From contig OX638295.1 of the NCBI GenBank assembly GCA_951812345.1, positions 1,002,759-1,066,758 of the forward strand: a stretch of DNA of 64,000 nucleotides, written 5' to 3'. The position numbers and the translations under genes are program-made. Source of the DNA: Rhodothermales bacterium. Lineage in GTDB: Bacteria; Bacteroidota; Rhodothermia; Rhodothermales; VXPQ01. Shown here one piece after another: positions 13,699-58,052 of this stretch. The first letter of the stretch is position 1. Each line of letters opens with the position of its first letter. Below the pieces are notes generated by a model. The model did no database searches, had not been told where the DNA came from, and worked only from the letters and a program-made list of their open reading frames with translations.

Positions 13699-13996
13699 TA
13701 AGAATACTCTGATTAAGTCCGCGAAGTTCAGAGGCTGCGAGAAGTGCGCTGGCAAGGAATGACGAAGCAGTGTGGCAGGTCCCACATAATGAGGAATGAC
13801 GCGGCCAGCGTGCTTCTCGTAGCCTCCCGAAGGGCGCTTCACGTCCGCGATGCCCGAAACCTCAGTGTTTTTCGCAAATTGCAACGAGGGAACCATGATG
13901 TCGTTTACGCACGAACGTGAAGCGCTGAGTGAAGCGGTTTTGGTCAGAGTATCCTTAAAGCGCTGATCGAAGCGGTTTTGATCAGAGTATCCCTAA
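13699..13996 (+). repeat. Interspersed inverted-terminus repeat, copy A
   Basis: A 298-base copy of the repeat family described in the findings. The left end reads AGAATACTCTGATTAAG and the right end TTTTGGTCAGAGTATCC. The right end is followed by a second tandem copy of the terminal 40 bases, ending TCAGAGTATCCC. Internal arms GCGCTTCACGT and ACGTGAAGCGC pair perfectly over 11 bases, and a second hairpin joins GAAGTGCGCTGGC with GCCAGCGTGCTTC. It fills the whole 303-base gap between two minus-strand genes; its right edge lies four bases from the stop codon of the YncE-like gene. Confidence 0.9.
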
Positions 13997-13999
13997 GTC

Positions 14000-15370
14000 T
14001 TAGCGGGCGGTTGTTTCATCCCGCTGGGCGCCGATGCCCGTGGGGTACTGTTCCACCTCGATGACCTTTACGATGTCGAACGTGTTTGCGTCGATGACCG
14101 CCACCGATCCGTTGGGAGAATTATTGTCTTCCTCGTGGTATCGGGGGGTGAACGCGGCGTTCAGGTTGTTGCTGGATACGTAGATATACCGTCCATCCGG
14201 CCGTACCGCACTGCCGTGCGGCTCTGCGAGGCCGTGCCCGGAAATTCTTTCGACTTCGGTTCCGGTAGTTACGTCAAGGATAGAAACGGCGTTGGCCATT
14301 TTGACGGGAAAGACCGCACGATCCCCTCCGGGAAGAAACGATGGATGCCAGGGCCCTCCGCCAAGGGGCAGGGTTTTCGTGACCTCGGGCTGCATCGGCT
14401 CCGTGATGTCGAGAAACAGAATATCTCCGCTCATATGTCCCCCAACGATCATGGAGCGTCCGTCGGGCGCCACGGCAAATTGCACCAGACTGTGATGCAT
14501 GCCCGGGACCGGGACGAGTTCGATATCCAGGGATTCGGCGTTCACTACGGCGACCTGATTCATGCCGAGACTGGCGCTGAACACGTATTTCCCGTCGGGG
14601 GTGATGTTAAGCGCGTGCGGCCGGGGGTGGAATACATCGATTTCCTCGATAGCCATGCTGTCCGGCTCGATAACCCCTATGCGCTGTGGCGGGTTGACGG
14701 CGGTCATCGACCGACCCACATACAACTGTTCCAGGACGGGATCGAAGGCCAACATACCCGGCGCCTCGAACGCCGTTCGCCCCAGCAGTTCGTTCTCCCG
14801 GTTGAATTTCAGTACGGTATGCTCCCCGATGAGCGATACGTACCAGAACGCCCCGTCGGGCGTGACCGCCACATGGTGGGGTTTGGCATTCGCGGAGAAG
14901 CCGAAATCCTGCAGATCCACGGTACGGGCGACGACATTCGCTTCCATGTCGATAATGGAAATCACCCCGGACCCCTGGTTGCAGACGTAGAGGAACGGCC
15001 CCGCATCCGCATACGCGACTTCTCCATCGTCGCTCCGGGCGCCGCTTTCGATCCATGACCGCACCAGCGCGATGGCGACGGGATCGACCCCCGCCTGTTC
15101 TGCGCGTTCTACAAGCAGACTCCGGTCGGCGTCGAAGGGAATGATAACTTCGCCCTGTTCGGACCCTCGCATCAGGGTTTCCCATGACCCGCCGTCGAGG
15201 CCGGTGTCCTCCGTTAGAAGGGGGAGAAAGGATTCCCGGATAACCGGAAGGACATCGCGCGTAAACACGACATCGGTTCGCGTTTGTCCCACTGCCTGTA
15301 GCGGAGAGACTGTTACGGCGATGCCGCACAGTGTACAAACGAGGGCGATTGCTTCAAGATATCGCCGCAT
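14000..15370 (-). CDS. YncE-like beta-propeller protein with haem-less PSCyt1-like N-terminus
   Basis: 456 residues with a signal peptide. Residues 32-125 follow the layout of planctomycete cytochrome-type domains (DVLPVIRESF, later SLLVERAEQ and LVRSWIESGAR) but there is no C-x-x-C-H; the corresponding place reads SFLPLL, so haem cannot be bound in the usual way. From about residue 125 repeated YVCNQGSGVISIIDM, HHVAVTPDGAFWYVS, ALNITPDGKYVFSAS and HGSAVRPDGRYIYVSS units form a seven-bladed propeller of the YncE/40-residue YVTN type. Role unknown, probably periplasmic or surface. Compare the genuine haem versions at 51918 and 62679. Confidence 0.75.
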   Translation of the reverse strand: MRRYLEAIALVCTLCGIAVTVSPLQAVGQTRTDVVFTRDVLPVIRESFLPLLTEDTGLDGGSWETLMRGSEQGEVIIPFDADRSLLVERAEQAGVDPVAIALVRSWIESGARSDDGEVAYADAGPFLYVCNQGSGVISIIDMEANVVARTVDLQDFGFSANAKPHHVAVTPDGAFWYVSLIGEHTVLKFNRENELLGRTAFEAPGMLAFDPVLEQLYVGRSMTAVNPPQRIGVIEPDSMAIEEIDVFHPRPHALNITPDGKYVFSASLGMNQVAVVNAESLDIELVPVPGMHHSLVQFAVAPDGRSMIVGGHMSGDILFLDITEPMQPEVTKTLPLGGGPWHPSFLPGGDRAVFPVKMANAVSILDVTTGTEVERISGHGLAEPHGSAVRPDGRYIYVSSNNLNAAFTPRYHEEDNNSPNGSVAVIDANTFDIVKVIEVEQYPTGIGAQRDETTAR

Positions 15371-15459
15371 GAAATCTGTCGGGTAGTGGAAAAAGCAAGC
15401 GGGCTGCGACGCCGGCTATGCATTATGCCGGCGGGCAACCCGCTTGCCGCTGCGTGTCG

Positions 15460-17838
15460 TTAAAGACCCAGTTCCTGCTTTTTCTTCAGGATGAAAAGGC
15501 CCTCGCCGATACTGGAAACCACGATCGTACCGCTCTCGAAGAACGGATAATTACTCCAGGATCCTGCAAACCCCGCAGAGTTGTCGCCGACCGGCATCGT
15601 GTCGAAATAGCCCACCTCGCGGGGATTCATGGGATCACTCACATCGTGGATCCGAAGCCCGCTGACATAATTCGACTGGTACATCAGATTTTCATGGATG
15701 TACAGGTTGTGATCCGACGCTTCGCTTCCCCATGTGTACTCTTTGACGAGTTGCGGATCGTCGATGTCGGTGATGTCCCAGATGAGGGTGCGGGTTTCGG
15801 GTACGCTACCGCTTATCTCGTCCAGTTCGTCGTTGACGAAGAAGTGGCGGTGATCATCGCTGATCCAACCCTGGTGGGTGTAGGATACACTGGGATACGC
15901 TGCCGTCGCTACGCTGACGGGGGCGTCCTTGTCTGTAACGTCCGCAATATTCAGGGCCGTTTCATTGGAGCCGAAGCAAAGTTCACGTCCTGCGTAGTCG
16001 GAGTCCGGGCCGTTGTAGACGATGCATTGCGCGTCGTGGGTGTAGCCTGTACCGGCACGTCCGGTCCCAGAGGCGGAGTAGCAGCCGGCGAACACCGGGT
16101 TCGTCGGGTCCTGAATATTGATCATGTGCAGTCCGCCGCCACAGGTTTCGCCGCCGGCCCGGCCGCCCACGGTGTATGCAAACCCGGTCTCCGTGTTGAT
16201 GACGATATTATGTGCACTGTTGATTCCGTCGTAATGCGCCGTTTCCTCGAAGGTCATGGGTATGTCACTGGCATCGCGCAGTTGCGTCAGGTCGAACACC
16301 TGTACACCGTGCTCCTGGGCAGCATCAGCCACGATAAAGGCATGGTCCTTATACACCTTGATATCGCGCCAGACGGCCCCAGGCGTGCCTTCCGTTTTAG
16401 GCAGGTTGCCGAGATAAACCGGATTCGAGGGGTCGGTAATGTCAACGAACGATGTGCCGTCAACCCGTCCAACCAGCGCATATTCCCGTCCGCTTTCCGG
16501 GTCGGTCCATCCCCAGATGTCGTTCAACTGGACGCCGCGTTCACCGCCTACCTCGCGTATCGGCAGGAACGAAAGCATGTCCACCATATCGCAGGAAAAA
16601 ACGCCGGCAGCGCCTTCCGAACAGTCTACCGTGTCGCCCGTGACTGCCTCGAGTCCGCCCGCTGGGCTGCGAAGCGTGGCGCTATGTTCCCAGCCGCTTT
16701 CCTCGCTGCGTTCGAACACAGCTACTGCGCCTGCGCCAAAATCGGCCCTGTTGAGGGCGACCACAGCGATATTCCCGGAGATATCCAGTGTTTGCCCGAA
16801 CAGATCGCCGCGCTCCAGGTCGGGCAGGCTGATCGTCATGGATTTGCCGTATGCGCCGTCTTCGCCTTTTGCGAACCGGTACACGCCGCCCTGGAAGCCT
16901 GATCCGAACGGGGCGCCGCTCCACACTTCATTTCCGCCGAGCGCGATATCCGCTCCAAAGCCCGGCGGGCTCGTGGCCGCAAACGGCAACAACAGCATGA
17001 CCGAGGCCCAGCTGTTCGATTCCGCGTCTCGTTGGTACATGATGGCGCCGCCTGCGCGGTTGGCGAATCGGGGAATGCCCACAAGCAGTTCATCGCCCAT
17101 CAGGTCAAGGGCCGCGCCGTAGCGGTCGCCCTCTTCCGAAACACGGCCTTTCAACAGTTGCGATTCGGTCCATTCCCCTGAGGAAGCGTCCCGCTCGAAC
17201 AGGTATACGCCGCCCGATGCATCGTCTCCGCCATGGGCTCCGACGAACGCGCGTCCTTCTTCAGCGGCAATGGCTGTTCCGAAGCGGCCGCCCTTTTTCA
17301 CTTCACTGCCCTGGAGGCGTGCGGTCTGCATCCACATTCCGCTGTCGTCCCGCTCGAATATATAGGCCGCTCCTGCGGAGGAATCAGCAGCTGGAGCCCC
17401 TACGAACACGGCGCCGTCGCTCAGCCCAACCGTCATCCCGAAGGCGTCATCGGGCCCGGCGTCGTCGCCTGTCAGGGCTGCCTGATGCATCCATCCGTCT
17501 TCCATGCGCTCGAATATATGTGCGGAGCCGGCTTCTCCGTCCTTGCCGGACGATCCGATGACGAGCATATTTTCTTCAATAGCCAGACTGCCTCCGAATC
17601 CATCATTCATTTCGGCGTCCGTCGCCGTAATCGTGGCTTCCTGCGCCCACCCCCCGTCTGCCTGATGGAAGATGTACACGGTACCAGGGCGGTACAGGTT
17701 ATCTGGTTCTCCGACAAAAATCCGGTCTCCGGAAATAAGGAGGGCATTGCCGAATCCTTTCTGGGCATGCGCTGTTCCGACAAGGCAGATAGATGTCAGG
17801 AAAGCAGCGAGAAGCATGCGGTAGCTTTGTGTTGCCAT
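15460..17838 (-). CDS. Choice-of-anchor B family secreted protein
   Basis: 792 residues from ATG at 17838 (MATQSYRML), chosen because the signal peptide (LLAAFLTSICLVGTAHAQ) then sits at the N-terminus; the frame is open further upstream. The N-terminal half consists of FG-GAP-like propeller repeats (GDDAGPDDAFGMTVGLSD, GDRYGAALDLMGDELLVG). The C-terminal half has LVIVD-type repeats (GTSFVDITDPSNPVYLG, LHMINIQDPTNPVFAG, LRIHDVSDPMNPREVG) as in the choice-of-anchor B family, where the C-terminus varies with the surface-anchoring system. Function unknown; a likely extracellular adhesion or binding protein. It is the third propeller protein in a row on this strand, 89 bases upstream of the YncE-like gene. 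Confidence 0.8.
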   Translation of the reverse strand: MATQSYRMLLAAFLTSICLVGTAHAQKGFGNALLISGDRIFVGEPDNLYRPGTVYIFHQADGGWAQEATITATDAEMNDGFGGSLAIEENMLVIGSSGKDGEAGSAHIFERMEDGWMHQAALTGDDAGPDDAFGMTVGLSDGAVFVGAPAADSSAGAAYIFERDDSGMWMQTARLQGSEVKKGGRFGTAIAAEEGRAFVGAHGGDDASGGVYLFERDASSGEWTESQLLKGRVSEEGDRYGAALDLMGDELLVGIPRFANRAGGAIMYQRDAESNSWASVMLLLPFAATSPPGFGADIALGGNEVWSGAPFGSGFQGGVYRFAKGEDGAYGKSMTISLPDLERGDLFGQTLDISGNIAVVALNRADFGAGAVAVFERSEESGWEHSATLRSPAGGLEAVTGDTVDCSEGAAGVFSCDMVDMLSFLPIREVGGERGVQLNDIWGWTDPESGREYALVGRVDGTSFVDITDPSNPVYLGNLPKTEGTPGAVWRDIKVYKDHAFIVADAAQEHGVQVFDLTQLRDASDIPMTFEETAHYDGINSAHNIVINTETGFAYTVGGRAGGETCGGGLHMINIQDPTNPVFAGCYSASGTGRAGTGYTHDAQCIVYNGPDSDYAGRELCFGSNETALNIADVTDKDAPVSVATAAYPSVSYTHQGWISDDHRHFFVNDELDEISGSVPETRTLIWDITDIDDPQLVKEYTWGSEASDHNLYIHENLMYQSNYVSGLRIHDVSDPMNPREVGYFDTMPVGDNSAGFAGSWSNYPFFESGTIVVSSIGEGLFILKKKQELGL

Positions 17839-18056
17839 GGTTTTGAAAAATGTGATGGATGGGTGGCGATCCGAAAGTTTCGGCATGGCGTCGTTGGTAC
17901 AGCGCCGGATGGATATATAACCCTGTGTATGCCGTACAAAAAAAAGCACTCGCCAACATCCTATGAACGGATATTCTTTTCGTTCCGCAGGAAACTCCGT
18001 ATCCTAATACTAAATTAATCGCTCTACGGCATTCGCCGTTCTTCAGGGGGTACTTT

Positions 18057-22213: not shown

Positions 22214-22262
22214 TCTTAAGGATACTCGCGACATGGATTTTCCGTCTTAGGGGAGGGCATTC

Positions 22263-22355: not shown

Positions 22356-22368
22356 CATGACCCGGCAT

Positions 22369-22404: not shown

Positions 22405-22430
22405 CGGGATAAACATGAAACCGATTTGCC

Positions 22431-23093: not shown

Positions 23094-23145
23094 GTCCTGT
23101 TCTATCAGGTTTTGCTGGGGAATGTGTTGCCCCGGTTCTTAATGG

Positions 23146-25611: not shown

Positions 25612-25616
25612 ACGAT

Positions 25617-25922
25617 ATGGAATTAACTCTTTCCTGGTATTTGTCGCTAAGCGCCGTACTGTTTACGATCGGCACACTCGGCGTGCTTCTGCGCCGCAAT
25701 GCGATCGTTGTATTCATGTCGATCGAATTGATGCTCAACGCCGTCAACATCACGCTTGTGGCGTTCAGTCGATCCATGGGTGACGTGGCGGGGCAAATGC
25801 TGGTCTTTTTCGTGATGGCGGTAGCTGCGGCGGAAGCTGCCGTGGGGCTGGCCATCGTTATTGCGTTGTTCCGGAAGAAAGAGACGGTCGATCTCAGCCG
25901 GTTCAATCTATTCAGGTTTTAA
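25617..25922 (+). CDS. nuoK: NADH-quinone oxidoreductase subunit K
   Basis: 101 residues, three helices, normal length. Conserved glutamates are visible in [15 protein letters not shown] (helix 2) and [16 protein letters not shown] (helix 3); these carry protons in the membrane arm. The stop codon TAA (25920-25922) is formed by the first bases of repeat element B, so the end of this gene coincides with the edge of the repeat. Confidence 0.93.
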
Positions 25923-26093
25923 GGATGCTCTGATCAAGTCCACTTTGCTCAGCGCGTCACGTTTGCACGTACAGAACATCATGATTGCATCGTTGAAATC
26001 AACGGAAAACACTGCGGATTCGGGGCGTCTCGGACGTGACGCGCACTCCTCGCAAGCCTCTGAGCTTTGCGGACTTAACCAGAGCATCCTTTA
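25920..26093 (-). repeat. Interspersed inverted-terminus repeat, copy B (short form)
   Basis: A 174-base copy in inverse orientation to A, lying in the 210-base gap between nuoK and nuoL. Ends AAGGATGCTCTGAT and CCAGAGCATCC. It lacks the GGAATGAC-containing central hairpin of the long copies but keeps the other one as GCGCGTCACGT and ACGTGACGCGC: both arms differ from copies A and D at one position and still pair. It supplies the nuoK stop codon. Confidence 0.88.
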
Positions 26094-35438: not shown

Positions 35439-35545
35439 ATGTTTTCTGCTAACCTGTACTTGCGAACGTGAAGTGCTGAGCGAAGCGGTTTTGGTCAGAG
35501 TATCCTTAAAGCGCTGAGCGAAGCGGTCTTGATCGGAGCATCCTA
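35439..35545 (+). repeat. Interspersed repeat, copy C (truncated right end)
   Basis: Only the right-hand part is present, starting within the ATGTTTTCTGCT segment, with internal loss before GCGAACGTGAAG. As in copy A the terminal 40 bases occur twice in tandem (TCAGAGTATCC, then TCGGAGCATCC). The last bases provide the stop codon (TAG, read on the minus strand at 35545-35543) of glgB. Confidence 0.82.
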
Positions 35546-37432
35546 TTTTTCCTGTTCGAGGATCGAGACGGCAAGGGGCGGCAGGGTTACGACCACGGAG
35601 TGGTTTCGTCCATGAAACGGTACCGGATCCGTATCTACGCTGCCGAGATTCCCTACGCCGCTTCCGCCGTATATCTGCGCATCGGAGTTGAGCAATTCCC
35701 GCCAGCGGCCCTTCCCGGGCATCCCGATGCGGTAGTCCGTACGGGGAACCGGCGTAAAATTGAACAGGAACACCAGTTCCCGGTCCGTCGAACGCCGGAT
35801 GTAACTGACCGTGCTGCCTTCGTGATCTTCGAAGTCGATCCATTCGAACCCGCCGGGCTCGTCGTTCCAGAGCGCCGGATGATCCCGATACAGGGTATAC
35901 AGGTCTTTCACCCATGCCATCATGCCTTTGTGCAACGGGTCTTTCAGGGCGTCCCAGTCGATGGCGTGGTCGTGATCCCATTCGGAAGTCTGTCCGAACT
36001 CCGACCCCATAAAAAGTAGTTTCTTTCCCGGATGCCCGATCTGGTGGCCGTACAGGAGGCGCAGGTTCGCCGCCTTTTGCCAGGCGTCCCCGGGCATTTT
36101 CCCCCAGAGCGACCCCTTGCCATGCACGACCTCATCGTGCGATAGCGGCAGGATGTAGTGCTCGGAATACGTATAAAGGAGGGGGAAGGTAAGGCGATCC
36201 TGGTGATGCTTCCGGTGGACCGGGTCTTTCTCCATATACTCCAGGGTATCGTGCATCCACCCCATATTCCACTTGAACAGGAAACCGAGCCCTCCGTCGT
36301 AGGTCGGTTTGGAAACGCCCGGCCACGCTGTAGATTCTTCGGCGATCATCAGGATGTCCGGCTCATGATTGTAGACCATCTCGTTGACTTTCTTCAGCAG
36401 GTCGATGGCTTCGAGATTCTCCCGTCCGCCGAACATGTTCGGGGTCCAATCCTTGCCCCGCGAATAGTCCCGGTACAGCATGGAAGCCACCGCATCGAAG
36501 CGCAGCCCGTCTATGTGGTATTTCTCGATCCAGAAAAGCGCATTCGAAATCAGAAAGTTGCGAACCCCCGGCTTGTTGTAGTCGAAGACATAGGTGCCCC
36601 AGTCGGGATGGTATCGCATGCCGGGATCGTCGTACTCGTACAGGGTGCTGCCGTCGAAGAAAACGAGCGCCTGCGGATCGGTGGCGAAGTGGGCCGGCAC
36701 CCAATCCAGCAACACGCCGATGCCGCGCCGGTGCAGGTAATCCACCAGATATTTGAAATCCGCAGGCGAGCCGTACCGGAAGGTGGGAGCAAAGTACCCC
36801 GCGACCTGATAGCCCCAGGAGCCGTAGAACGGGTGCTCCATGACCGGCATGAATTCCACATGCGTGAAGCCGAGATCCTCCACATGATCGGCAAGGGGTT
36901 TGGCGATTTCCCGGTAGCCCATGGAGTACATCCCCCGCTTGCGCCAGGACCCGAGATGCACCTCGTAGATCGAGATGGGCCGGTTTAGCGAATCCGGTCC
37001 GCATCGCTGTTCGAGCCATGCCTTGTCCCCCCATGCGTAGTCGAGGTCGCACACGATCGAGGCCAGCCCCGAGGATGCGTCTCCGCCTGACGCGGGAGGT
37101 TCCATCGCAAAGGCGTAGGGGTCCGTCTTGTCCACGGTGTACATGCCCCGCGTAATACGGTATTTGTACCTCTGTCCGCTCATGGCGCCCGGTGCGTACG
37201 TTTCCCAGACGCCCCCCTTTCTTCGTCGCAGCGGATGCGCATCCGGCTTCCAGTCGTTGAATTCCCCCAGTACGGATACGGCGCCGGCCCCCGGAGCCCA
37301 CACGGCAAACCAGACGCCTTCCTTGTCCGGGTGCGCCCCCAGCTTCTCGTAACTGCGGTAAAAAGAGCCCTCTTCCAGGCGCTGTACTTCTTCCTTAGTG
37401 AGCCAGGAGCGGCGGGACGTCTTTTTTGTCAT
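35543..37432 (-). CDS. glgB: 1,4-alpha-glucan branching enzyme
   Basis: 629 residues. N-terminal CBM48 domain ([23 protein letters not shown]), then the GH13 barrel: [22 protein letters not shown] with the nucleophile aspartate, [10 protein letters not shown] with the acid glutamate, and [14 protein letters not shown]-terminal beta domain to the end. It makes alpha-1,6 branches in glycogen. It follows glgE by 31 bases on the same strand, a usual pairing because GlgE extends chains that GlgB branches. The stop codon lies inside repeat C. Confidence 0.95.
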
Positions 37433-39419: not shown

Positions 39420-39445
39420 GTACGATGCGTGTCGAAAAGGTGAGG

Positions 39446-39720
39446 GCGGCGTTTAAGGATACTCTGATCAAAACCGCTTCGATCAGCGCTTCACGTTCGT
39501 GTGTAAAAGATATTATAATTGCATCGTTGAAATTAGCGGAAACGCTGCAGATTCGGGGCATCGCGGATGTGAAGCGCCCTTCGGGAGGCTGCGAGAAGCA
39601 CGCTGGCTGCGTCATTCCTCATTGTGTGGGGCCTACCACACTGCTTCGTCATTCCTTGCCAGCGCACCTCTCTCAACCTCTGGACTTCGCGAACTTAATC
39701 AGAGTATCCTTAAACGCCGC
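39446..39720 (-). repeat. Interspersed inverted-terminus repeat, copy D
   Basis: Full-length copy in inverse orientation to A, in the 391-base gap between the divergent glgE and glgX genes. Its outer ends are a perfect 23-base inverted repeat (39446-39468 and 39698-39720) that begins GCGGCGTTTAAGG and runs into GATACTCTGAT; the first six or seven bases go beyond the ends shared by other copies. Internal arms GCGCTTCACGT and ATGTGAAGCGC pair with one G-T wobble. It must overlap or lie beside the promoters of both genes. The remaining 90 bases to glgX show nothing recognisable. Confidence 0.9.
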
Positions 39721-39810
39721 TGGCAGTGTTTCAAAGGAGATATCGGAACGGGTGCGGGTTTCCGGGGTTTCGGAATGCCCTTCGGATGTTCGTTTATATA
39801 TTAGTATATC

Positions 39811-42021
39811 ATGTCGAAAGGTACATCGAAATCAGGACGATCGCATTCGGAAAACCAGGCCCGGATATGGCCCGGTTCGCCGAATCCCCTCGGTGCGCAC
39901 TGGGACGGCAAGGGCGTGCATTTTTCCGTGTTCAGCCATCATGCGGAGCGCGTGGAATTGGTGTTGTTCGAGGATAGCGAGGCGGATGGGCCGTCGGAGA
40001 CGCTTGCTCTTCCCGAACGCACGGGGGCCATGTGGCATGGCTATGTTGCCGGGCTGGGTCCGGGTCAATGCTACGGATACCGTGTACATGGTCCATACGA
40101 CCCCGAACACGGCCACCGGTTCAATCCGAACAAGGTGCTTTTCGATCCCTATGCGAAAGCCATCGGGAGGCCGCTTTCCTGGCACGACAGTCTTTTCGGC
40201 TATGTTATCGGATCGCATGAGGAAGATCTTCTTTTGAGCGACCTCGACAGCGCCCCGTATGCCCCGCTCGGGGCCGTAGTGGACGAGCGGTTCGATTGGG
40301 GAGACGACCGTTTGCCGGACATCCCGTGGGAAGATACCATTTTATACGAAACGCATGTGAAGGGAATCAGCAAGCGGCACCCGGACGTGCCCCCGGAATT
40401 GCGGGGTACATACGCGGGCCTTGCTTCGGAGCCTGTGCTGGATCACCTGCGGAGCCTTGGCGTCACGACCATCGAGTTGCTGCCCATCCATGCGCATGTG
40501 CATGACCGCCGCCTTTTCGAGGCAGGGCTGGGGCAATACTGGGGATACAATACGCTCGGCTGGTTCGCCCCGGAGCCGGGATACGCCGCGACCGGCCTTG
40601 CGGGGGCTGTGAGCGAATTCAAGGAAATGGTCCGGAGGCTTCACGCCGCCGGATTCGAGGTTATTCTGGATGTCGTGTACAACCACTCGGGGGAAGGGAA
40701 CCGGCTCGGTCCCACGATTTCCATGCGGGGGCTGGATAATCTTTCGTACTACAAGAACAATCCGGGTCAGCCGCGCTTCCTCGTGGATTATACGGGCACC
40801 GGCAATACCCTCGACATCGGGTGCCCGCAGGCGCTCCGCCTCGTCATGGACAGCCTGCGGTACTGGGTGCGCGACATGCATGTGGACGGGTTCCGGTTCG
40901 ATCTGGCTACTACGCTGGCGCGCCAGCACTACGATGTGGACATGGCCTCCACGTTTTTTACGCTGGTCGAACAGGATCCCGTGCTCAGCCGCGTCAAGCT
41001 GATTGCGGAGGCATGGGACGTGGGGCCGGGAGGGTACCGCGTCGGCGACTTCCCGTGGCTCTGGTCCGAGTGGAACGGACGTTACCGGGACGTTGTGCGT
41101 CAGTTCTGGCGGGGCGATGGGGGGTTGCAGGGAGTTTTCGCCACCCGGTACGCAGGTTCGAACGATATGTACCGGGCGCCGGAGCGCCGCCTTTCCGCGT
41201 CCGTCAATTTCGTTACGGCCCACGACGGATTCACGCTGGACGACCTCGTCAGCTACGAGCGCAAGCATAACCATGCGAACGGGGAGGACAACCGCGACGG
41301 GCACGAGCCCAACTACAGCGACAACTGCGGCGAGGAGGGTCCCACGGATCGCCCCGGCGTGCTGAATATGCGCGAACGGCGCAAGCGGAGCATAATGACG
41401 ACCTTGCTGCTTTCCCAGGGCGTTCCGATGTTGCTCGGCGGCGACGAACTCTCGAATACGCAGGAAGGCAACAACAATCCCTATTGCCAGGACAACGAAC
41501 TGACCTGGTACGACTGGGACCTCGACGACCGGAAGCAGGCTTTTCTGGAATTCATGAAAAAGATGGTGGCGCTTCGCAAGGCGCACCCCGGTTTCCGCCG
41601 CCGTTTCTTTTTGCGGGGCGAGATGGACGCGGAGGGCGCGCGCGACGTGCTATGGTGGCATCCGGACGGACGCGAGATGGACCATGGGGACTGGGCGAAT
41701 CACGGGTTGCGTTCATTCGGCGTACTGCTTTGCGGAGGCGGCCTGCACGGTCTGGATCCGGAGGGACGCAAGCGCGAGGACGATACCATGCTGGTTCTGT
41801 TCAATGCCGGGGAACACGACGTGACCTTTGGCCTTCCCGCTTCTGAAACGCTGCTCTGCACCGGGGTGAAGTCGGCGCAAGGCCCGTGGGAGTTCGTGTC
41901 CGGCATGGATATGCCCGCGCCGGAGGGGGGTCCGGCTGCCTGCGAGGAGGGGGACCGGATTGCGGACGGACGGATTACCGTGGAGGCGTTTTCGACGGTG
42001 GTGTTGCGTATGCCGCGGTGA
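39811..42021 (+). CDS. glgX: Glycogen debranching enzyme GlgX
   Basis: 736 residues, isoamylase-type GH13. N-terminal CBM48 ([20 protein letters not shown]), [38 protein letters not shown] with the nucleophile aspartate, [16 protein letters not shown] with the glutamate, and [16 protein letters not shown]. It hydrolyses alpha-1,6 branches of glycogen limit dextrins. It converges with malQ, which would process the linear products. The gene starts 90 bases after repeat D. Confidence 0.94.
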
Positions 42022-42076
42022 GGGGTGGGTTGATTTCGGCGTTATACGCGAACCGATCCGGCGACTATGCGTTTTT

Positions 42077-42140
42077 TGCATAATTCATGCATGATCTATG
42101 CATGAATTGCATAGATCAGGAGAGATTGGGCCAATCTCCT
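42077..42140 (-). repeat. A/T-rich dyad repeat, copy 1
   Basis: Between the convergent glgX and malQ genes. It contains inverted arms GATCTATGCA and TGCATAGATC around five bases, further TGCAT units, and a separate palindrome GAGATTGG-G-CCAATCTC. Its reverse complement matches 46751-46817 over most of its length. Either a mobile relic or a bidirectional 3'-end structure. Confidence 0.7.
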
Positions 42141-42264
42141 TGTAAATTCCCCGCAAAACACCCGGTACTGTACGCCGGAAAGGCGGTTCGCTTCATTGGA
42201 TCGCCTGCCGGACGTTTCCTGCTTCCAAGGGCGTTGCGCAGCGCCTGAGCCGGCAGGGTATCGA

Positions 42265-45697: not shown

Positions 45698-46741
45698 ATG
45701 ACCCGTTCTGTACCTGCTCCCGCGAGGAGTTCTGTCGCCTCCTCCATAGGGGAGCGTCCTTCACCCGCCTCCACAGGGGGAAACCATACCCGTAACGGCA
45801 GGGAACCTGCCCAGGGAGCCGATGCCCTACTTGCCGACGTGCTGGAGGGCATGGGGCGTACACCGAAGTCTCTTCCGTGCAAGTATCTCTACGACGCGCG
45901 CGGTTCGCGCCTCTTCGAGCAGATTACGCAGTTGGAGGAATATTACCCGACTGCTACGGAGCTTGCTATCATGGAGGCGCATCTCAACGAGATCGTCGCC
46001 TGCCTCGGTCCCCGCTGCCTGCTTCTCGAATACGGCAGCGGAAGCAGCCTGAAGACGCGCCTTCTGCTGGACCGCATGGAGGAACCGGCCGGCTACGTGG
46101 CCATCGACATTTCCGAGGAGCATCTGAGCGCCTCGATGCGGTATCTCCAGGAGATGTACCCGCATATTCCCATGCGCGCCGTCCCCGCGGATTATACGAC
46201 CTCCTTTGCGGTCCCCGCCAACGGGTTCGAGGCGGCGCGCACGGTGGTTTATTTCCCCGGATCCACCATCGGTAATTTCGAGCCGCGCGAGGCGCACGCC
46301 TTTCTTGTGCGCATGGCGCAGGCGGCGGGTCCCGGCGGCAGACTCCTGATCGGGGTGGACCTCGAAAAGGACCGGGATACGGTCGAGGCGGCGTACAACG
46401 ACGCACAAGGCGTTACGGCGGCGTTCAACAAGAACCTGCTGCGCCGCATGAACAGGGAACTGGGCGCCACCTTCGATCCGGACGCCTTCCGGCACCGGGC
46501 CGTTTACAACCTCGAAGAGGGGCGGATCGAAATGTCTCTGGTGAGCGCATGCGACCAGACCGTGCGCGTGAACGGGCGCCATGTTGGTTTCGAGGAGGGC
46601 GAACCCATTGTCGTCGAGTATTCGTACAAGTTCACGCTGGAGCGCTTCCGGGGTCTTGCGGAGCGGGCCGGGTTCGCCGTACAGAATGTCTGGACGGATG
46701 CGAACCGCCTTTTCAGCGTACAATACCTGAGTGTTTTGTAA
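45698..46741 (+). CDS. egtD: L-histidine N(alpha)-methyltransferase EgtD
   Basis: SAM-dependent enzyme that trimethylates histidine to hercynine, the substrate of EgtB. 347 residues from ATG at 45698 (MTRSVPAPARSS); the upstream in-frame ATG at 45602 would add a non-conserved stretch. Family motifs: CKYLYDARGSRLFEQITQLEEYYPTATE-type start around residue 60-90, LLEYGSGSSLKTRLLL for SAM binding, FPGSTIGNFEP, and a C-terminal LERFRGLAERAGF. A Ser/Pro-rich N-terminal tail of about 45 residues is longer than in characterised EgtD. Order egtB-egtD suggests one transcript. Confidence 0.93.
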   Translation: MTRSVPAPARSSVASSIGERPSPASTGGNHTRNGREPAQGADALLADVLEGMGRTPKSLPCKYLYDARGSRLFEQITQLEEYYPTATELAIMEAHLNEIVACLGPRCLLLEYGSGSSLKTRLLLDRMEEPAGYVAIDISEEHLSASMRYLQEMYPHIPMRAVPADYTTSFAVPANGFEAARTVVYFPGSTIGNFEPREAHAFLVRMAQAAGPGGRLLIGVDLEKDRDTVEAAYNDAQGVTAAFNKNLLRRMNRELGATFDPDAFRHRAVYNLEEGRIEMSLVSACDQTVRVNGRHVGFEEGEPIVVEYSYKFTLERFRGLAERAGFAVQNVWTDANRLFSVQYLSVL

Positions 46742-46750
46742 GGGATTTGT

Positions 46751-46835
46751 GGAGAGATTGAGCCAACCCCCTCTGGTCTATGCAATTAGTGCATAGATCA
46801 TGCATGTATTATGCGACAATTGCATAGATCGGGTA
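46751..46835 (+). repeat. A/T-rich dyad repeat, copy 2
   Basis: Just after egtD and before the sulfatase gene. TCTATGCA-ATTAG-TGCATAGA is a dyad, followed by ATGCATGTATTATGC and another ATTGCATAGATC. Preceded by GGAGAGATTGAGCCAA, which matches the palindrome side of copy 1. The orientation is opposite to copy 1, so the pair encloses malQ, egtB and egtD. Confidence 0.7.
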
Positions 46836-46841
46836 CTGATT

Positions 46842-51245: not shown

Positions 51246-51262
51246 ACATACATGCGCAAAGT

Positions 51263-51421
51263 TCAGTCGTAGCCTGCCAACCTGCTCCAGGGTGATATTT
51301 CGAAATCGTTGATGCAGGCCGAGCGGTAGATGTCATAGACCGTGTTGTCCGGGTTGCTACGCCCAGGTTTGTCCAGGGCCTGTTGTTCGAGTGTGCCCGG
51401 TCGCCCGGCGAACCGGCTCAT
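51263..51421 (-). other. Short minus-strand frame, possible gene fragment
   Basis: A 52-codon frame (MSRFAGRPGTLEQQ to PWSRLAGYD) that starts at the edge of repeat E and ends before the GH116 stop. The stretch NTVYDIYRSACIND is faintly like the C-terminal end of Gfo/Idh/MocA oxidoreductases, so it may be the end of a gene cut off by repeat E. No ribosome binding site. Treated as doubtful. Confidence 0.2.
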
Positions 51422-51422
51422 T

Positions 51423-51683
51423 TTAGGATACTCTGATTAAGTCCGCAAAGCTCAGAGGCTTGCGAGAAGCGGGCTGGCAAGGAATGACGAAGCAATGTGG
51501 CAGGCCCCACATAATGAGGAATGACACGGCCAGCGTGCTTCTCGCAGTCTCCCGAAGGGCGCTTCACGCCCGCAGTGCCCGGAACCCGCAGTGTTTTCTG
51601 CTGATTTCAACGATGGAATCATGGCGTCCCTTACGTGCGAAAGTGAAGTGCTGAGCAAAGTGGTTTTAATCAGCGTATCCTTG
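51423..51683 (+). repeat. Interspersed inverted-terminus repeat, copy E
   Basis: A 261-base copy in the 672-base gap between the GH116 gene and the next gene, same orientation as A. Ends TAGGATACTCTGATTAAG and TTTTAATCAGCGTATCC. The central hairpin pairs GAGAAGCGGGCTGGC with GCCAGCGTGCTTCTC; the second one pairs GCGCTTCAC with GTGAAGTGC through one wobble. The region from 51684 to 51917 carries no clear gene except the sites listed separately. Confidence 0.9.
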
Positions 51684-51792
51684 ACATGGTTTCGGTCGCA
51701 GAGGCAATCTACGACGAACAGGAACACCTCGTATTAACGAGGGTAGCCATATGATTACAGCGGATTTCCCGGGGAAGGCAACCGAATTTGTG

Positions 51793-51820
51793 TTGAAGCC
51801 GGTAATGTTAACGATAACAT
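51793..51820 (+). promoter_or_regulatory. LacI-type operator within a possible promoter
   Basis: ATGTTAACGATAACAT (51805-51820) has perfect six-base arms around ACGA with a central CG, the form of LacI/GalR-family operators. TTGAAG at 51793 and TAACAT at 51815, 16 bases apart, could be the -35 and -10 boxes, so a bound repressor would block them. It lies 98 bases before the PSD1 gene and could control the catabolic genes downstream. No lacI gene is in the window. Confidence 0.4.
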
Positions 51821-51855
51821 ACCCACTAAGAACGAGCGAGTGACAAGGAGACAGT

Positions 51856-51888
51856 ATGGTTGAAACCCCTGCATTTTTATTGTATTAA
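51856..51888 (+). other. Ten-codon leader frame with strong Shine-Dalgarno
   Basis: AAGGAG at 51845-51850, five bases before an ATG, starts the short frame MVETPAFLLY ending at TAA, 29 bases before the PSD1 gene. It could be a leader peptide for coupling or attenuation, or the start of a gene lost by deletion. The next gene has no comparable ribosome binding site. Confidence 0.3.
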
Positions 51889-51917
51889 TAAGTGAAGCGG
51901 CACACCCACATCACACC

Positions 51918-54900
51918 ATGCATCTTCTGGGTTCACATCTCGGTTCTTTGTGGGTTCGCGTCTTGATCGGGCTCGGTGTGCTCGGCGCGTTGGTGCTAAT
52001 CTTGCTGGTTGCTTCCCCAACGTTGGATGCTGGTGTGGACCTCCCCGATGAGGTGGATTTCAACTACCACATCCGGCCTATCCTTTCTAACAATTGTTAT
52101 GTGTGCCACGGTCCCGACGTCAGCACGCGAGAGGCAGATCTGCGGCTGGACCTCCGCGATCACGCCACTGCCCGGCGGGAAGAGGGTGGGCGCGCCATCG
52201 TACCCGGGAATACCCGCCGAAGCCTGCTGGTGCAGCGCATCACTGCGGAAGATCCCGAGGTGCGCATGCCCGCGAAAGAGGCCAACAAGACGCTCAATCC
52301 TCGCGAGATCGCGCTACTCAAGCGATGGATCAAGCAGGGCGCCGAGTACAAGGAGCACTGGTCATTCATTCCCCCTGCAAAACCCGACGTACCGGAGGCC
52401 CCTGCCGGCTGGTCGGCCACGGGCGCCATTGACCTTTTTATCGGCGCCCGGCTTTCGGGCGCAGGACTGAAGCCGGCTCCGCCTGCGTCCAGGGAAGCGC
52501 TCATTCGCCGCCTGTCCTATGTCCTGACCGGGCTGCCTCCATCGCCGGAAGAGGTACGCGCTTTTGTTGCGGACGAGTCTCCCGACGCCTATGAAAGGCT
52601 GGTTGACCGTTTTCTGGCTTCTCCCCGTTTTGGAGAACGCTGGGCGCGGCATTGGATGGATCTCGTTCGCTATGCGGATGCCAGAGGCCACGAGTTCGAC
52701 TACACGGTTCAGGGGAGCTGGCGCTATCGGGACTACCTTATTCGCGCCTTCAACGCCGATGTGCCGTATGACCGGTTTGTAGCAGAGCACCTGGCAGGGG
52801 ACCTGCTGGAGGCGCCCCGCAGGCATCCCGAGCAGCTATTTGACGAATCGGTGCTTGGAACGGCTTTTTATGCGCTGGGCGAGGGCACGCACAGCCCGGT
52901 AGATGTGCGTCAGGATGAGGCCGATCGAATCGACAACATCATTGACGTCACGAGCAAAACGTTTCAAGGGTTGACCGTTGCCTGCGCCCGCTGTCACGAT
53001 CACAAGTTCGATCCCATTCCAACGACCGATTATTACTCGCTCTACGGCATTTTCGAAAGCACGCGCTTCGCCCCGACGTCGTTGCTTCCTACCGACTTAA
53101 CGGCACGACTGGACTCGATCAAGGCTCTCAAAACCGAAATGCGCCGGCGCCTTGCTGACAGATGGTTGGAAGATTTGGCGGAGATACCAGTGCAACAGGC
53201 TGCTCTACGTTTTTCCCAGGAAGAGGACCGTAGAGAAGAGCTGTCCGGGCCGGTTTCGCAGGGGGATGAACCCTCTTCTTTCCAGGTTCTTGGAGATTTC
53301 CGCCATGGCAGTTTCGACGGGTGGTATCCGCACGAGCCGGCTTTCGGAAGGGGCCCGATGATGGGCGAACCGGTCCTGGATCGAAGGAGGATGACGCTTG
53401 ACAGTTTGGCTTTCGGCGTGGCGTCGAGTCAGCGATGGACGAGGGGGATCCCGGGCGCGCTACGGTCGCCCACGTTTATTATTGAGCACGACACCGTTGG
53501 CGTACTGGCGGCGGGACACCAATCAACCATCCGCATCATTATCGACAATTTCCAGCTCATCCAAAACCCCATTTACGGTGGGCTTGAGCAGGTGGTCGAG
53601 GATTCGGAACTGACCCCGTATCGTTTCGACGTGAGTATGTGGCGCGGTCGGAAAGCTTACGTGGAGTTGTTGGCGGGTATCTACGAAAAAGGCCGGCACG
53701 TCAGTGAGAATCATCATCTTGTCGCGGGCGATTCTGTTTATATCGACGTTGCCTACGCCGTGGCGTACACCGGGGAATTGCCGGATATGGCCTTGCATTA
53801 TTCCTCATCAAGTGGAGCGTCCACTGATGTCGTCCAACAGGCCGTCCGCGCATGGGCTTCCGGGCAGGCCGAAGCCGCTCAGATCGCTCTCCTCAATGCT
53901 TCCCTGCGGCAGGGTCTCCTTGACGCCTCTCTGGATCCCGTAGCTTCCCTGATCGCGAAAATCGAGGAGGTAGCCACTCGCCTGGACGAGCCAGCCCGCT
54001 TTGCAGGGGTGACGGATGGCGCTGCCGTCAACAGCCCCGTCTTTGAACGGGGAAGCTACCAGATGCTTGCAGGTGACCCCGTCCCGCACCGCTTCCTGAC
54101 TGCGCTGGACCCCGATGGGACCCCCTTCACTACCACAGCGAGCGGGCGGCTGGAACTGGCCCAGGCAATCACCAACCCTGAAAACCCCTTGACAGCTCGC
54201 GTGATGGCGAATCGTCTTTGGCATCACGTTTTCGGACGCGGTCTTGTCGAGACGGTGGACAACTTCGGCGCGCAGGGCAAGCTGCCGACACATCCGGCCT
54301 TGCTGGACTACCTGGCGCTTCGCTTTGTCGAGCAGGGATGGTCGGTCAAGTCCATGATTCGTGAGATGGTGCGCTCCCATACGTTTCGTCAATCGACGCA
54401 GGCCGATGCGCAAGCCGCTGAGGTGGATCCGGAAAACCTGCTTTGGCATCGCTATCCCGTACGTCGGCTCGAAGCGGAAGCCATCCGCGATGCAATCCTG
54501 ACGGTTTCAGGTCGCCTCGATACGACAATGTACGGCGAGCCGATACCCATTCATTTGACGGAGTTTATGGACGGGCGAGGGCGCCCAGAGGCATCGGGTC
54601 CGCTCGACGGCGCAGGCCGGCGCAGCATCTATATTGCTATGCGGCGAAACTTTCTGTCACCGATGATGCTCGCCTTTGATATGCCCATTCCCTTTTCCAC
54701 TTTTGGCAAGCGTAATACCACCAACGTGCCGGCTCAGTCGCTGACGATGCTCAACGATTCCCTGGTGGTTCAGCAGGCCACTGTTTGGGCTCACAACCTC
54801 GTGGCTCTGCACGATCTTGACGTTGATGAGAAGATAGACCATATTTATCTGACGGCTTTGTCTCGGCTTCCCACCGAAGAGGAGCGAGGCAATGCGATCG

Positions 54901-55025
54901 CATTTATCCGTCAACAGACCAATGGCTATGGACTCTCGGAGGAAGAGGCTTTCGACGATTTGAGATCCTGGGCTGCCTATTGCCACGTAGTACTGAACCT
55001 TAAAGAATTCATCTACCTGGTATAG
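51918..55025 (+). CDS. PSCyt1-PSCyt2-PSD1 cytochrome-type protein
   Basis: 1035 residues. One membrane helix at residues 13-32, then a cytochrome c-like domain with C60-Y-V-C-H64, MPAKEANKTLNPREIALLKRWI, a DUF1549 domain (LIRRLSYVLTGLPPSPEEV, FGERWARHWMDLVRYADARG) that has a second haem motif CARCH near residue 356, and a DUF1553 domain to the end (NPLTARVMANRLWHHVFGRGLV, RHTFRQS-like, LTMLNDSLVVQQA). Such proteins abound in Planctomycetes, usually paired with a DUF1501 gene, as here after nine bases. They are thought to act in polysaccharide breakdown or electron transfer, but no reaction is proven. Confidence 0.88.
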   Translation: MHLLGSHLGSLWVRVLIGLGVLGALVLILLVASPTLDAGVDLPDEVDFNYHIRPILSNNCYVCHGPDVSTREADLRLDLRDHATARREEGGRAIVPGNTRRSLLVQRITAEDPEVRMPAKEANKTLNPREIALLKRWIKQGAEYKEHWSFIPPAKPDVPEAPAGWSATGAIDLFIGARLSGAGLKPAPPASREALIRRLSYVLTGLPPSPEEVRAFVADESPDAYERLVDRFLASPRFGERWARHWMDLVRYADARGHEFDYTVQGSWRYRDYLIRAFNADVPYDRFVAEHLAGDLLEAPRRHPEQLFDESVLGTAFYALGEGTHSPVDVRQDEADRIDNIIDVTSKTFQGLTVACARCHDHKFDPIPTTDYYSLYGIFESTRFAPTSLLPTDLTARLDSIKALKTEMRRRLADRWLEDLAEIPVQQAALRFSQEEDRREELSGPVSQGDEPSSFQVLGDFRHGSFDGWYPHEPAFGRGPMMGEPVLDRRRMTLDSLAFGVASSQRWTRGIPGALRSPTFIIEHDTVGVLAAGHQSTIRIIIDNFQLIQNPIYGGLEQVVEDSELTPYRFDVSMWRGRKAYVELLAGIYEKGRHVSENHHLVAGDSVYIDVAYAVAYTGELPDMALHYSSSSGASTDVVQQAVRAWASGQAEAAQIALLNASLRQGLLDASLDPVASLIAKIEEVATRLDEPARFAGVTDGAAVNSPVFERGSYQMLAGDPVPHRFLTALDPDGTPFTTTASGRLELAQAITNPENPLTARVMANRLWHHVFGRGLVETVDNFGAQGKLPTHPALLDYLALRFVEQGWSVKSMIREMVRSHTFRQSTQADAQAAEVDPENLLWHRYPVRRLEAEAIRDAILTVSGRLDTTMYGEPIPIHLTEFMDGRGRPEASGPLDGAGRRSIYIAMRRNFLSPMMLAFDMPIPFSTFGKRNTTNVPAQSLTMLNDSLVVQQATVWAHNLVALHDLDVDEKIDHIYLTALSRLPTEEERGNAIAFIRQQTNGYGLSEEEAFDDLRSWAAYCHVVLNLKEFIYLV

Positions 55026-55034
55026 GATACTCTC

Positions 55035-56474
55035 ATGAGTAAGTCGCATAATCTTACTTGTCCAATGACCCGGCGCGAGATGTTGACCCTGTGCCGCAAT
55101 GGCTTTGGGTCGGTCGCCCTGATGGGTCTGATGGGTACCCCCGCATTCGGTCGGGCGCTCACCAACGAGCGGCAGGTATCCGGCGCTAATCCGTTCGCAC
55201 CACAGGCGCCGCATCATGTCCCCAAGGTGCGGAGCGTGATCTTTCTTTACATGGACGGCGGGGTTTCCCAGGTCGATAGCTTCGACCCCAAGCCGCGTCT
55301 GGATCGCGAACACGGCCAGAATCCGTACGACAAATTCAAGGTTGACGCCACGCAGTTTAACGATATAGGCACCATTCTTAAAAGCCCTTGGGAATTCAAA
55401 CGCTATGGCGAGAGCGGTCTTCCTGTTAGTGAACTTTTTCCTCACATCGGAAGTTGTGCCGACGATCTGGCAGTGATTCGGTCCATGGTGGCCGAGTTTC
55501 CGGAGCACACGAATGCCAATTTCTTCCTGCACACCGGTATTGGACTTCAAGGTCGTCCGTCGATGGGTTCCTGGGTTACCTATGGACTCGGCAGTGAAAA
55601 CCAGGACCTGCCTGGCTACGTGGTACTGGACGGAGGGCTGATTCCGCCGGGCGGGCTAGACAACTTCAACAGCGGTTTTCTTCCGGCCTCGTATCAGGGG
55701 TCGATCTTTCGGGCCGGCGACGTTCCGCTCGCCAACATCGTTCCTCTCGAACCCACGTCGGAGTTGCAGCGCCAGAAGCTGAAACTGATGAGTCAGACCG
55801 ACGAGCGGCTCCTGGGTCGTATCGGGCACGCCGACCAGGTCGAGTCGGCGATCACGAACTACGAACTGGCCTTCCGGATGCAGGCCTCGGTGCCCGAACT
55901 TACGGACCTCTCAGGCGAAACACGGACCACAAAGAAGCTCTACGGGATGGAGTCCGACGATCCGCATACGCGAAGCTACGGTGCACAGTGCCTGTTGGCG
56001 CGGCGTCTCGTTGAGCGGGGCGTGCGATTCATCGAATTGACATGCCCGCGCTGCGAATCTGATCGGTGGGATCAGCATGCCAACCTGAAAATAGGGCACG
56101 AACGCAACGCTCATGCGGTGGATCAACCTATTGCAGGGCTTCTGAAGGATCTGAAGGCACGCGGTTTGCTGGAGGAGACCCTCGTTGTTTGGGCTGGTGA
56201 GTTTGGGCGGACGCCGTTCGCGCAGGGTACGAACGGGCGAGACCACAACCCATCGGCGTTTAGTATCTGGCTTGCGGGAGGAGGCATTAAAAAGGGTGTG
56301 GTTTACGGTACCACAGACGAATATGGATACCAGAGGTGGTTCGGGTTGATTGGACAGATTTCGGCGGAATTTAAGGTGTACTGTTGCGACCTTGTTCCGA
56401 CGCAATCAACCAGAAGAGACCCATGTCAAGACGCCCACGCAGAACCCATAGTCCTTCGTTCAAGGCGAAGGTAG
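55035..56474 (+). pseudogene. DUF1501 protein, N-terminal part, cut by IS3 insertion
   Basis: The first 432 residues are DUF1501 (sulfatase-superfamily fold): Tat-like signal with TRREMLTLCRNGFG, FLYMDGGVSQVDSFDPKP, MVAEFPEHTNANFFLHTG, GSWVTYGLGSENQDLPGYV, RGVRFIELTC, VWAGEFGRTPFAQGTNGRDHNP and AGGGIKKGVVYGTTDEYGY. After 56331 the frame runs into the IS3 element and ends with 47 unrelated residues at 56474. The missing C-terminal end is at 57617-57775. Joined without the IS and one copy of TACC the gene is in frame and would encode about 484 residues, a normal length. The truncated product lacks the last conserved block and is probably inactive. Confidence 0.88.
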
Positions 56475-56713
56475 CCCTCGCCGCCGTGCGCGGCGACAGC
56501 ACGCTGGCCGAACTCGCCGAACGTTTCGAGGTGCACCCGAACCAGATACAATCGTGGAAGAAGCAGCTCACAGAGAGCGCCGAGGAGGCGTTCGTTCGAA
56601 GCCGCAACGTTCCCGATGAACGCGACAGGAAGATCGAGGCGCTTCACGCAAAGATCGGGGAGTTGTCGATGGAGAAGGATTTTTTATCGAAGGCGCTCGG
56701 ACACGACCGTTAG
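56423..56713 (+). CDS. IS3-family transposase OrfA
   Basis: 96 residues, HTH_Tnp_1-type DNA-binding protein: [40 protein letters not shown], then a leucine-zipper-like coiled coil ([22 protein letters not shown]). It recognises the IS ends. ATG at 56423 ([10 protein letters not shown]) is chosen; an upstream in-frame ATG at 56384 lies within the terminal region. A -1 frameshift at 56680-56686 would fuse it to OrfB to give the active OrfAB transposase. Confidence 0.92.
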
Positions 56714-56722
56714 CCGAGCGCC
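56680..56722 (+). promoter_or_regulatory. Programmed -1 frameshift signal
   Basis: The heptamer T-TTT-TTA (56680-56686, in the orfA frame GAT-TTT-TTA) is a canonical slippery site. Five bases further a perfect 9-bp hairpin follows: GGCGCTCGG (56692-56700) pairs with CCGAGCGCC (56714-56722) around a 13-base loop that includes the orfA stop. Slippage gives a frame open into orfB. Confidence 0.8.
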
Positions 56723-56727
56723 GCGCC

Positions 56728-57555
56728 ATGATAGCGCGCACGCATCGCTTGCCGGTCGTTCGCCAGTGCAGACTGGTCGAACCGAGCCGTTCTACGGCCT
56801 ACTACCGTCCCCGAGAGGAGAGCGAAGAGAACCTTGCCGTCATGAAGGAGATCGACCGGCTCTACATGGAGCGTCCCACGAGCGGATCGCGCACGATAAA
56901 GAGCAAGCTCCAGGCAAAAGGCGTTTGCATCGCCAGAAGCCGAATCGTTCGTTTGATGCGCCTTATGGGCTTTGGGGCCATCTACCCGAAGCGCCGCACG
57001 TCGTCTCCGGGGCAGGGACACAAGATTTACCCTTATCTGCTCAGAAGTCTCAAGGTGACAAGGCCTCGTCAGGTCTATGCGGCGGACATTACGTACATCC
57101 CTATGGCGAAAGGCTTTCTCTATCTCGTGGCCGTGATCGACTGGTACAGCCGCAAGGTGCTTGCCCACCGGCTCTCGAACACGATGGACGCAGCCTTTTG
57201 CGTCGAAGCGACGGAAGAGGCCATTGTTCGCTACGGAGCGCCCGAGGTGTTCAACACGGACCAGGGAGCGCAGTTTACCTCCGAGGCGTTTACCGGAGCG
57301 CTCAAGGCGCACGGGGTACGTATCTCCATGGACGGCAAGGGCCGCTGGCTGGACAACGTGTACGTGGAGCGCCTATGGCGCAGCCTCAAACAGGAAGAAG
57401 TCTACCGGCGCGCCTACGACACGGTGGCCGAGGCCAGGAAGGGAATCGCCGATTACCTGCGCTACTTCAACGAAGAGCGTCCGCACCAGGGACTTGACAA
57501 TAGAACGCCCGACGATGTATTCTACAAACGAAAACCGCTGAACCGGGCGGCATAG
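56728..57555 (+). CDS. IS3-family transposase OrfB (DDE integrase core)
   Basis: 275 residues. N-terminal HTH_21-like part (EIDRLYMERPTSGSRTIKSKL), then the rve catalytic core with the DDE triad: D in YAADITYIPMAKG, D in VFNTDQGAQFTS, and E in DNVYVERLWRSLKQEEVY with the following K. It cuts and joins DNA at the IS ends, normally as the OrfAB fusion. Frame -1 relative to orfA; the open frame continues upstream of this ATG to the slippery site. Confidence 0.94.
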   Translation: MIARTHRLPVVRQCRLVEPSRSTAYYRPREESEENLAVMKEIDRLYMERPTSGSRTIKSKLQAKGVCIARSRIVRLMRLMGFGAIYPKRRTSSPGQGHKIYPYLLRSLKVTRPRQVYAADITYIPMAKGFLYLVAVIDWYSRKVLAHRLSNTMDAAFCVEATEEAIVRYGAPEVFNTDQGAQFTSEAFTGALKAHGVRISMDGKGRWLDNVYVERLWRSLKQEEVYRRAYDTVAEARKGIADYLRYFNEERPHQGLDNRTPDDVFYKRKPLNRAA

Positions 57556-57616
57556 CCCGGTGCGGCAGTACACTTAAAATCGCCGGAAAAACTGTCCAGT
57601 TTTTCCGGACCATTTC

Positions 57617-57775
57617 TACCGTGTAGTGGACAAACCCACAACGATCCACGATTTGCACGCGACGATGTTGCACCTGTTGGGCATGGATCATCAGCGGCTC
57701 ACGTATCGGTTCAGTGGCCGCGATATCCGTCTGACCGATGTACATGGTCACTTGATCGACGCGGTGCTGGCGTGA
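57617..57775 (+). pseudogene. DUF1501 protein, C-terminal part
   Basis: Reads [34 protein letters not shown] and [18 protein letters not shown] before TGA, the standard C-terminus of DUF1501 proteins. It continues the frame of 55035-56331 exactly when the IS and one TACC are removed. It has no start codon or ribosome binding site of its own. Confidence 0.88.
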
Positions 57776-57791
57776 GGAGTTGGTTCTTTTT

Positions 57792-58052
57792 TAAAGGATA
57801 CTCTGATTAAGTCCGCAAAGCTCAGAGGCTGCGAGGGGTGGGCTGGCAAGGAATGACGAAGCAGTGTGGCAGGCCCCACACAATGAGGAATGACGCGGCC
57901 AGCGTGCCCCTCGCAGCCTCCCGAAGGGCGCTCCACACCCGCGATGTCCGAAACCTCAGTGTTTTTCGCAGATTTCAACGAGGGAATCATGATGTCGTTT
58001 ACGCACGAAACTGAAGCGCTGAGCAAAGTGGTTTTGATCAGAGTATCCTTAG
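57792..58052 (+). repeat. Interspersed inverted-terminus repeat, copy F
   Basis: A 261-base copy, same orientation as A, 17 bases after the DUF1501 stop, and filling most of the 322-base gap before the SDR gene. Ends AAGGATACTCTGATTAAG and TTTTGATCAGAGTATCC. The central hairpin pairs CGAGGGGTGGGCTGGC with GCCAGCGTGCCCCTCG, which differs from copies A and D on both sides. The second hairpin is poorer here (GCGCTCCAC against CTGAAGCGC). Confidence 0.9.

Follow-up and report, generated by a model that had tools for sequence, protein, structure and literature searches.

Gene-less repeats with inverted ends in a Rhodothermales genus: a probable MITE family of a decayed IS5-family insertion sequence

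Short repeats that carry no gene, but share inverted ends and occur in both orientations, raise the question of what they are and what moved them. We addressed this question for six such copies in a 64,000-nucleotide stretch of DNA from a Rhodothermales bacterium (hereafter the window, G000:C1:1002759-1066758), which belongs to a genome of one contig and 2,817,622 bases (G000). A preliminary description, made from the letters of the window, had reported the six copies and had proposed either a MITE-like element or a large repeat of the REP/BIME type. The first proposal held: the inverted ends, a 4-bp target duplication, empty sites in a relative and insertion sequence (IS) remnants with the same ends support a MITE, and we consider it very likely that the repeats are a MITE family of an IS5-family insertion sequence whose parent has since decayed. 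The second did not, because the genome yielded no Y1/RAYT transposase.

Anatomy and spread of the repeat family

All six copies were found where the preliminary description had placed them and with the ends that it gave, except that the core itself starts with GGATAC and ends with GTATCC, the outer AA/TT being part of the 4-bp target duplication. Three copies are full forms: copy D (39453-39713, minus strand; core 39457-39709, 253 bp), which is common to a genome of the same genus (G003) and is flanked by an exact TTAA/TTAA duplication, and copies E (51422-51684, plus strand; core 51426-51680, 255 bp; flanks TTTA/TTGA) and F (57792-58052, plus strand; core 57796-58048, 253 bp; flanks TAAA/TTAG), both at places without synteny to G003. 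Copy A (13698-13996, plus strand; core 13702-13992) is also full and additionally bears a second, 38-bp right end in tandem; its target duplication, CTAA at 13698-13701 and 13993-13996, is exact, and its ortholog in G003 (L036) has a single right end and an exact CTAA/CTAA duplication. Copy B (25919-26093, minus strand; flanks TTAA/TTTA) was correctly recognized as shortened, its 167-bp core (25923-26089) lacking the inner hairpin that is kept in the 257-bp core of the G003 ortholog. Copy C (35439-35547, plus strand; core end 35543, right flank TATT) is truncated as noted before: the left end is missing, two right ends lie in tandem, and the corresponding site in G003 holds a 37-bp hairpin. 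The flank pairs are thus exact for A and D, with one mismatch for B and E and two for F.

A simple gene finder based on codon usage places each of the six copies between genes, in agreement with the earlier statement that they carry no gene. With the same kind of finder, intergenic positions were assigned to 28 of 30 repeat loci in G000 and to 34 of 38 in G003, vs 15-16% of random 150-bp pieces. Mechanical open reading frames cross some copies (e.g., 39425-40237 through copy D), and the gene status of such frames is putative. At window positions 35543-35545, the boundary of copy C supplies the stop codon of a minus-strand ORF (35543-37432). An IS3-family insertion sequence occupies 56325-57555 of the window, about 240 bp upstream of copy F; its ORFs, 56384-56713 and 56728-57555, score 45.6 and 254.8 bits against transpos_IS3 (cut-off 160), and its segment 56325-56447 recurs inverted at 7178-7300, with five copies in 400 kb including these two. 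TGCAT palindromes abound in an unrelated 97-nt inverted repeat pair of the window (42065-42161 and 46731-46827, 76%), which has one more partial match in the rest of the 400 kb.

The mobile core runs from GGATACTCTGAT to ATCAGAGTATCC (in a longer reading of the consensus, GGATACTCTGATTAAGTCCGC...GTGGTTTTGATCAGAGTATCC), and its length has a mode of 254 bp, found in 37 of 104 distinct copies. In these terminal inverted repeats, positions 1-12 deviate in at most 12% per side, and each end is in turn nearly palindromic, with CTCTGA on the outer and TCAGAG on the inner side. Folded as RNA, copy F is predicted to form a long terminal stem that closes two hairpins (-119.8 kcal/mol, z -7.1; z -5.4 for the opposite strand). 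A modal core of only 254 bp would leave no room for a transposase. It lies within the size range of 50-1000 bp that PMC4596501 gives, in the text available, for bacterial MITEs, elements without transposase coding capacity; the 37-bp forms of the repeat fall below that range.

A 17-base end motif matches G000 362 times with up to 2 mismatches (174 forward and 188 reverse), compared with no match for the reversed control, which excludes a chance origin of the repeats. An inner motif, at up to 3 mismatches, gave 106 matches in G000 and 156 in G003, vs 4 and 2 for the controls. The 400 kb of G000 examined holds 30 repeat loci, of which 14 exceed 240 bp, and 400 kb of G003 holds 38, of which 19 do. 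Scaled from the 30 loci, the G000 total would be about 210, which agrees with the previously expected hundreds of copies per genome. The G000 loci sum to 5,249 bp, or 1.3% of the 400 kb, and the share over the sequence examined in both genomes is 1.3-1.6%. By DNA search, the family is present in all six genomes of the genus and in none of 54 others of the order. A scan of named records returned at least 82 stretches with the repeat, and among the 80 listed, 79 are from Rhodothermales bacterium and one is from a contig labelled Candidatus Latescibacterota (L134); the latter is probably mis-binned, since it shares 85-94% identity over 1.2-1.9 kb with Rhodothermales loci of the genus.

No named family had been recognized for this sequence, and we likewise obtained no match in Rfam, viral contigs, phage records or plasmid records and found no description of the family in the literature searched, including that on MITEs with Rhodothermales or Salinibacter. 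The family thus appears new, of a well-known kind, in a comparison that covered Rfam, phage and plasmid records and the literature, with ISfinder outside it.

Target duplications and empty sites

The flanks of 104 copies were compared (G000 contributed 35, stretches of G003 15 and other loci 54), some of which are not independent because they include orthologs. In the resulting matrix only the diagonal for a 4-bp duplication is raised, with Z values of 1.9, 5.1, 5.5 and 3.8, and the remaining diagonals (i+j = 2 to 13) have a mean Z below 0.5. A 2-bp duplication, which was our first guess from few flanks, is ruled out by this matrix. In 41 of the 104 copies the 4-mer on the left equals that on the right, vs 12.4% for pairs of flanks drawn from different copies. 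The commonest exact duplication is TTAA (19 of 41); together with two cases of CTAA, 21 of the 41 fit the motif YTAR and 20 do not.

G003 is collinear with G000 in inverted orientation, with 93% identity over one 20-kb stretch. Eight of the 30 G000 loci are without synteny in G003; at the 22 syntenic ones, G003 has a detected element at 15, a hairpin below the detection threshold at one, an empty site at five and other sequence at one. Of the 38 G003 loci, 8 are without synteny, 15 are detected in both genomes and 15 lack a detected element in G000, where several of them still show a bare end. The repeat accounts for part of the small-scale difference between the two genomes. Two regions of G000, G000:C1:803848-805474 and 1178177-1183192 (L039, L057 and L058), give many overlapping matches between the genomes at steps of about 72 bases and are possibly internally repetitive genes, such as those with leucine-rich repeats.

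Empty sites in a relative, at which the preliminary description had proposed looking for target duplications, largely agreed with a length of 4 bp. Ten sites were chosen by hand at which one genome has an element whose two ends can be read and the other has none, truncated sites being excluded, and were scored for duplications of 0-10 bp. A length of 4 bp was best outright at five sites and tied for best at two, 5 bp was favoured at two and 10 bp at one. The clearest cases are G003 320596, with flanks TTCA/TTTA and empty allele TTCA, and G003 257338, with flanks TATG/CATG and empty allele TATG (coordinates in the reverse-complemented 400-kb G003 piece). The flank matrix and the majority of the empty sites, though not every one, give a target-site duplication of 4 bp.

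Remnants of a probable IS5-family parent

A search of the genus genomes for DDE_Tnp_1 gave three matches in G000 whose flanks bear the ends of the repeat family. One of them, which has both ends, is a 666-bp IS derivative (G000:C1:1211472-1212137) that begins with GGATACTCTGATTTAATCC and ends with CCGGATTGATCAGAGTATCC, has transposase pieces around an internal deletion, and is flanked by TTAT/TTAA, one mismatch from a duplication. Exact agreement with the MITE consensus extends over 13 bp at its left end and 15 bp at its right end; beyond the ends there are only matches of 8-9 bp, which is chance level. Since its interior has no match to this IS, the MITE is not a simple internal deletion of it. 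The other two remnants (1585281-1585655 and 1185156-1185904) end at the same right end as the MITE, and two further remnants (2424381-2424551 and 801618-801857) were found by DNA search. The C-terminal fragment of 145 aa at 1585 kb scores 142.9 bits against the NCBIfam model NF033581, transpos_IS5_4 (cut-off 140), and 85.8 bits against Pfam DDE_Tnp_1. An IS630-type MITE was ruled out as a candidate: its marks are a DDE_3 transposase and a TA duplication, and the genome has no match to DDE_3 (PF13358), and the duplication measures 4 bp.

A search for a full-length element with the same ends around a transposase had also been suggested; IS5 remnants do share these ends, but no intact parent IS with them was found in the genus, so movement is not visible now. 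In the DNA search for the IS, G001, G003 and G005 each returned a single short match, and G002 and G004 returned none; since the scoring covered 40 candidates in each genome, out of 46-104, a further copy may have been missed. The C-terminal fragment has no match in G001-G005 at E≤1e-20, and in 114 genomes of the order it matches four, namely G000 and three of one other family. The best match, in G029, is an open frame of 329 aa with 72% identity over the fragment; its likely ends, GGAATGTCTGATCA...ATCAGAACATCC, are similar to those of the MITE, though the flanks (CTAA/TTTG) are unmatched. In other genus members, six DDE_Tnp_1 loci (L170-L172, L174, L175 and L177), several of them cut by contig ends, show no such ends in the fetched flanks at up to 2 mismatches among the matches listed. 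Facing pairs of family ends 600-3,500 bp apart number 86 in 1.6 Mb with some overlap, most with poor ends. One pair, at G003:C1:2478036-2479084, encloses a FitA-like antitoxin and a PIN-domain toxin (PF22513 and PF01850), possibly a cargo-carrying form or two broken copies on either side.

From these remnants and the target sites we propose the following origin. An IS5 transposase would have bound the shared GGATACTCTGAT ends in trans and would have inserted the repeat at AT-rich 4-mers between genes, with TTAA the most frequent target, and duplicated them in the process. The parent IS5 would then have decayed, and the stranded copies would have lost their interior by deletion between short repeats, giving rise to the shortened forms and the 37-bp hairpins, as two orthologous pairs suggest. 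The repeats exemplify a MITE family that persists across a bacterial genus in which the parent is found only as fragments.

Shortened forms, alternative readings and known systems

At the sites detected in both genomes, the form of the repeat differs at 8 of 15. At G000 367733 a 37-bp hairpin stands where G003 holds a full copy, with the junction at the repeat CTCTGA; we infer that this difference and that of copy B are deletions, not insertions. Such orthologous sites show how MITEs can become REP-sized hairpins, which bears on the origin of some orphan palindromic repeats. The 37-bp size is seen repeatedly in both G000 and G003, and its pattern, GGATACTCTGA-15 nt-TCAGAGTATCC, occurs at 23-52 sites per genome in the six genus genomes, a count at 3 mismatches that includes the ends of full copies; of the 23 sites in G004, all listed, 11 have up to 2 mismatches. 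That palindromes of exactly 37 bp were themselves moved by the IS5 transposase, and are not only deletion scars, seems to us rather unlikely. One site of G003, empty in G000, holds a lone 37-bp copy whose 4-bp flanks (GTAA/ATAA) differ at one base, but a full copy could instead have inserted there and lost its interior afterwards. If mobile, these palindromes would be exceptionally small substrates for a DDE transposase.

Among the alternatives to a MITE family, the one that survives best, and still a very unlikely one, is that the host now keeps the repeats, however they arose, as functional hairpins in RNA processing, termination or DNA structure. Paired changes are frequent in them: in hairpin A, both sides changed to give another Watson-Crick pair in 89 cells, vs 7 cells with any other two-sided change, the terminal stem has 12 vs 0, and over 101 copies there are 155 both-side standard changes vs 66.6 expected if independent, with 1.8% of cells broken; moreover, folding favours the plus over the minus strand in 46 of 51 copies. 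We do not read these changes as host function, because the other hairpin region is unbiased (91 vs 86) and because shared descent of copies or template switching in a palindrome can mimic them; the counts are indeed inflated by related copies, and the sequences compared also supplied the folds from which the pairs were taken. Nor is there a clear strand skew in one-sided GU and AC changes (33 v 23, 94 v 61 and 211 v 253), the orientations of neighbouring genes roughly track intergenic length (convergent at 2 of 30 G000 loci and 7 of 38 G003 loci), and the variable form at shared sites of two relatives also speaks against a kept structure.

Still less probable is a REP/BIME-type repeat mobilized by a RAYT, a Y1 tyrosine transposase, through single-stranded hairpins. 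The strong hairpins of both strands and the REP-like size of the 37-bp palindromes would suit it, but Y1_Tnp (PF01797) has no match in the genome, in a search whose control was positive in 5 of 14 known genomes, the repeat ends match IS5 remnants, and a 4-bp target duplication, as observed here, is not expected from Y1 transposition. Recent segmental duplication local to the window, which six copies inside 64 kb might suggest, has practically no chance of being right given the genome-wide end motifs and the presence of the family in every genome of the genus, and given flank identity that is confined to the 4-bp duplication.

As a MITE family, the repeats resemble several described systems. 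BrickBuilt, MITE293 and MITE700 of Porphyromonas gingivalis are likewise gene-less, with ends that match IS5-family insertion sequences, and BrickBuilt copies, in the available text of PMC4596501, have no transposase remnant, predicted stem-loops and target-site duplications at some copies. In contrast to the repeat, these MITEs number about 10-20 copies per genome (vs about 210 loci, scaled, here), their ends differ (GAGACC... and ACGTCATTCGA), their target-site duplications vary in length, and full-length IS elements that carry those ends have been reported (PMC4596501). IS5 of E. coli duplicates a 4-bp target (PMC10359306, as far as its available text goes), and its YTAR motif covers the TTAA and CTAA seen here; however, it is autonomous, and the targets of the repeat are looser, with almost half of the exact duplications outside the motif. 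By description, the Chunjie MITE of Geobacter uraniireducens has a 235-bp full form, forms shortened to as little as 178 bp and many partial copies, and its other copies are intergenic like the repeat; it differs in numbering 38 copies plus 57 partial ones (PMC10969869, available text). The same text describes QMITE1 and QMITE2 of Coxiella burnetii as having many shortened members, QMITE1 ranging over 39-400 bp; the direct repeats of QMITE2 are 7-9 bp long, compared with 4 bp here, and some of its truncated copies are REP-like.
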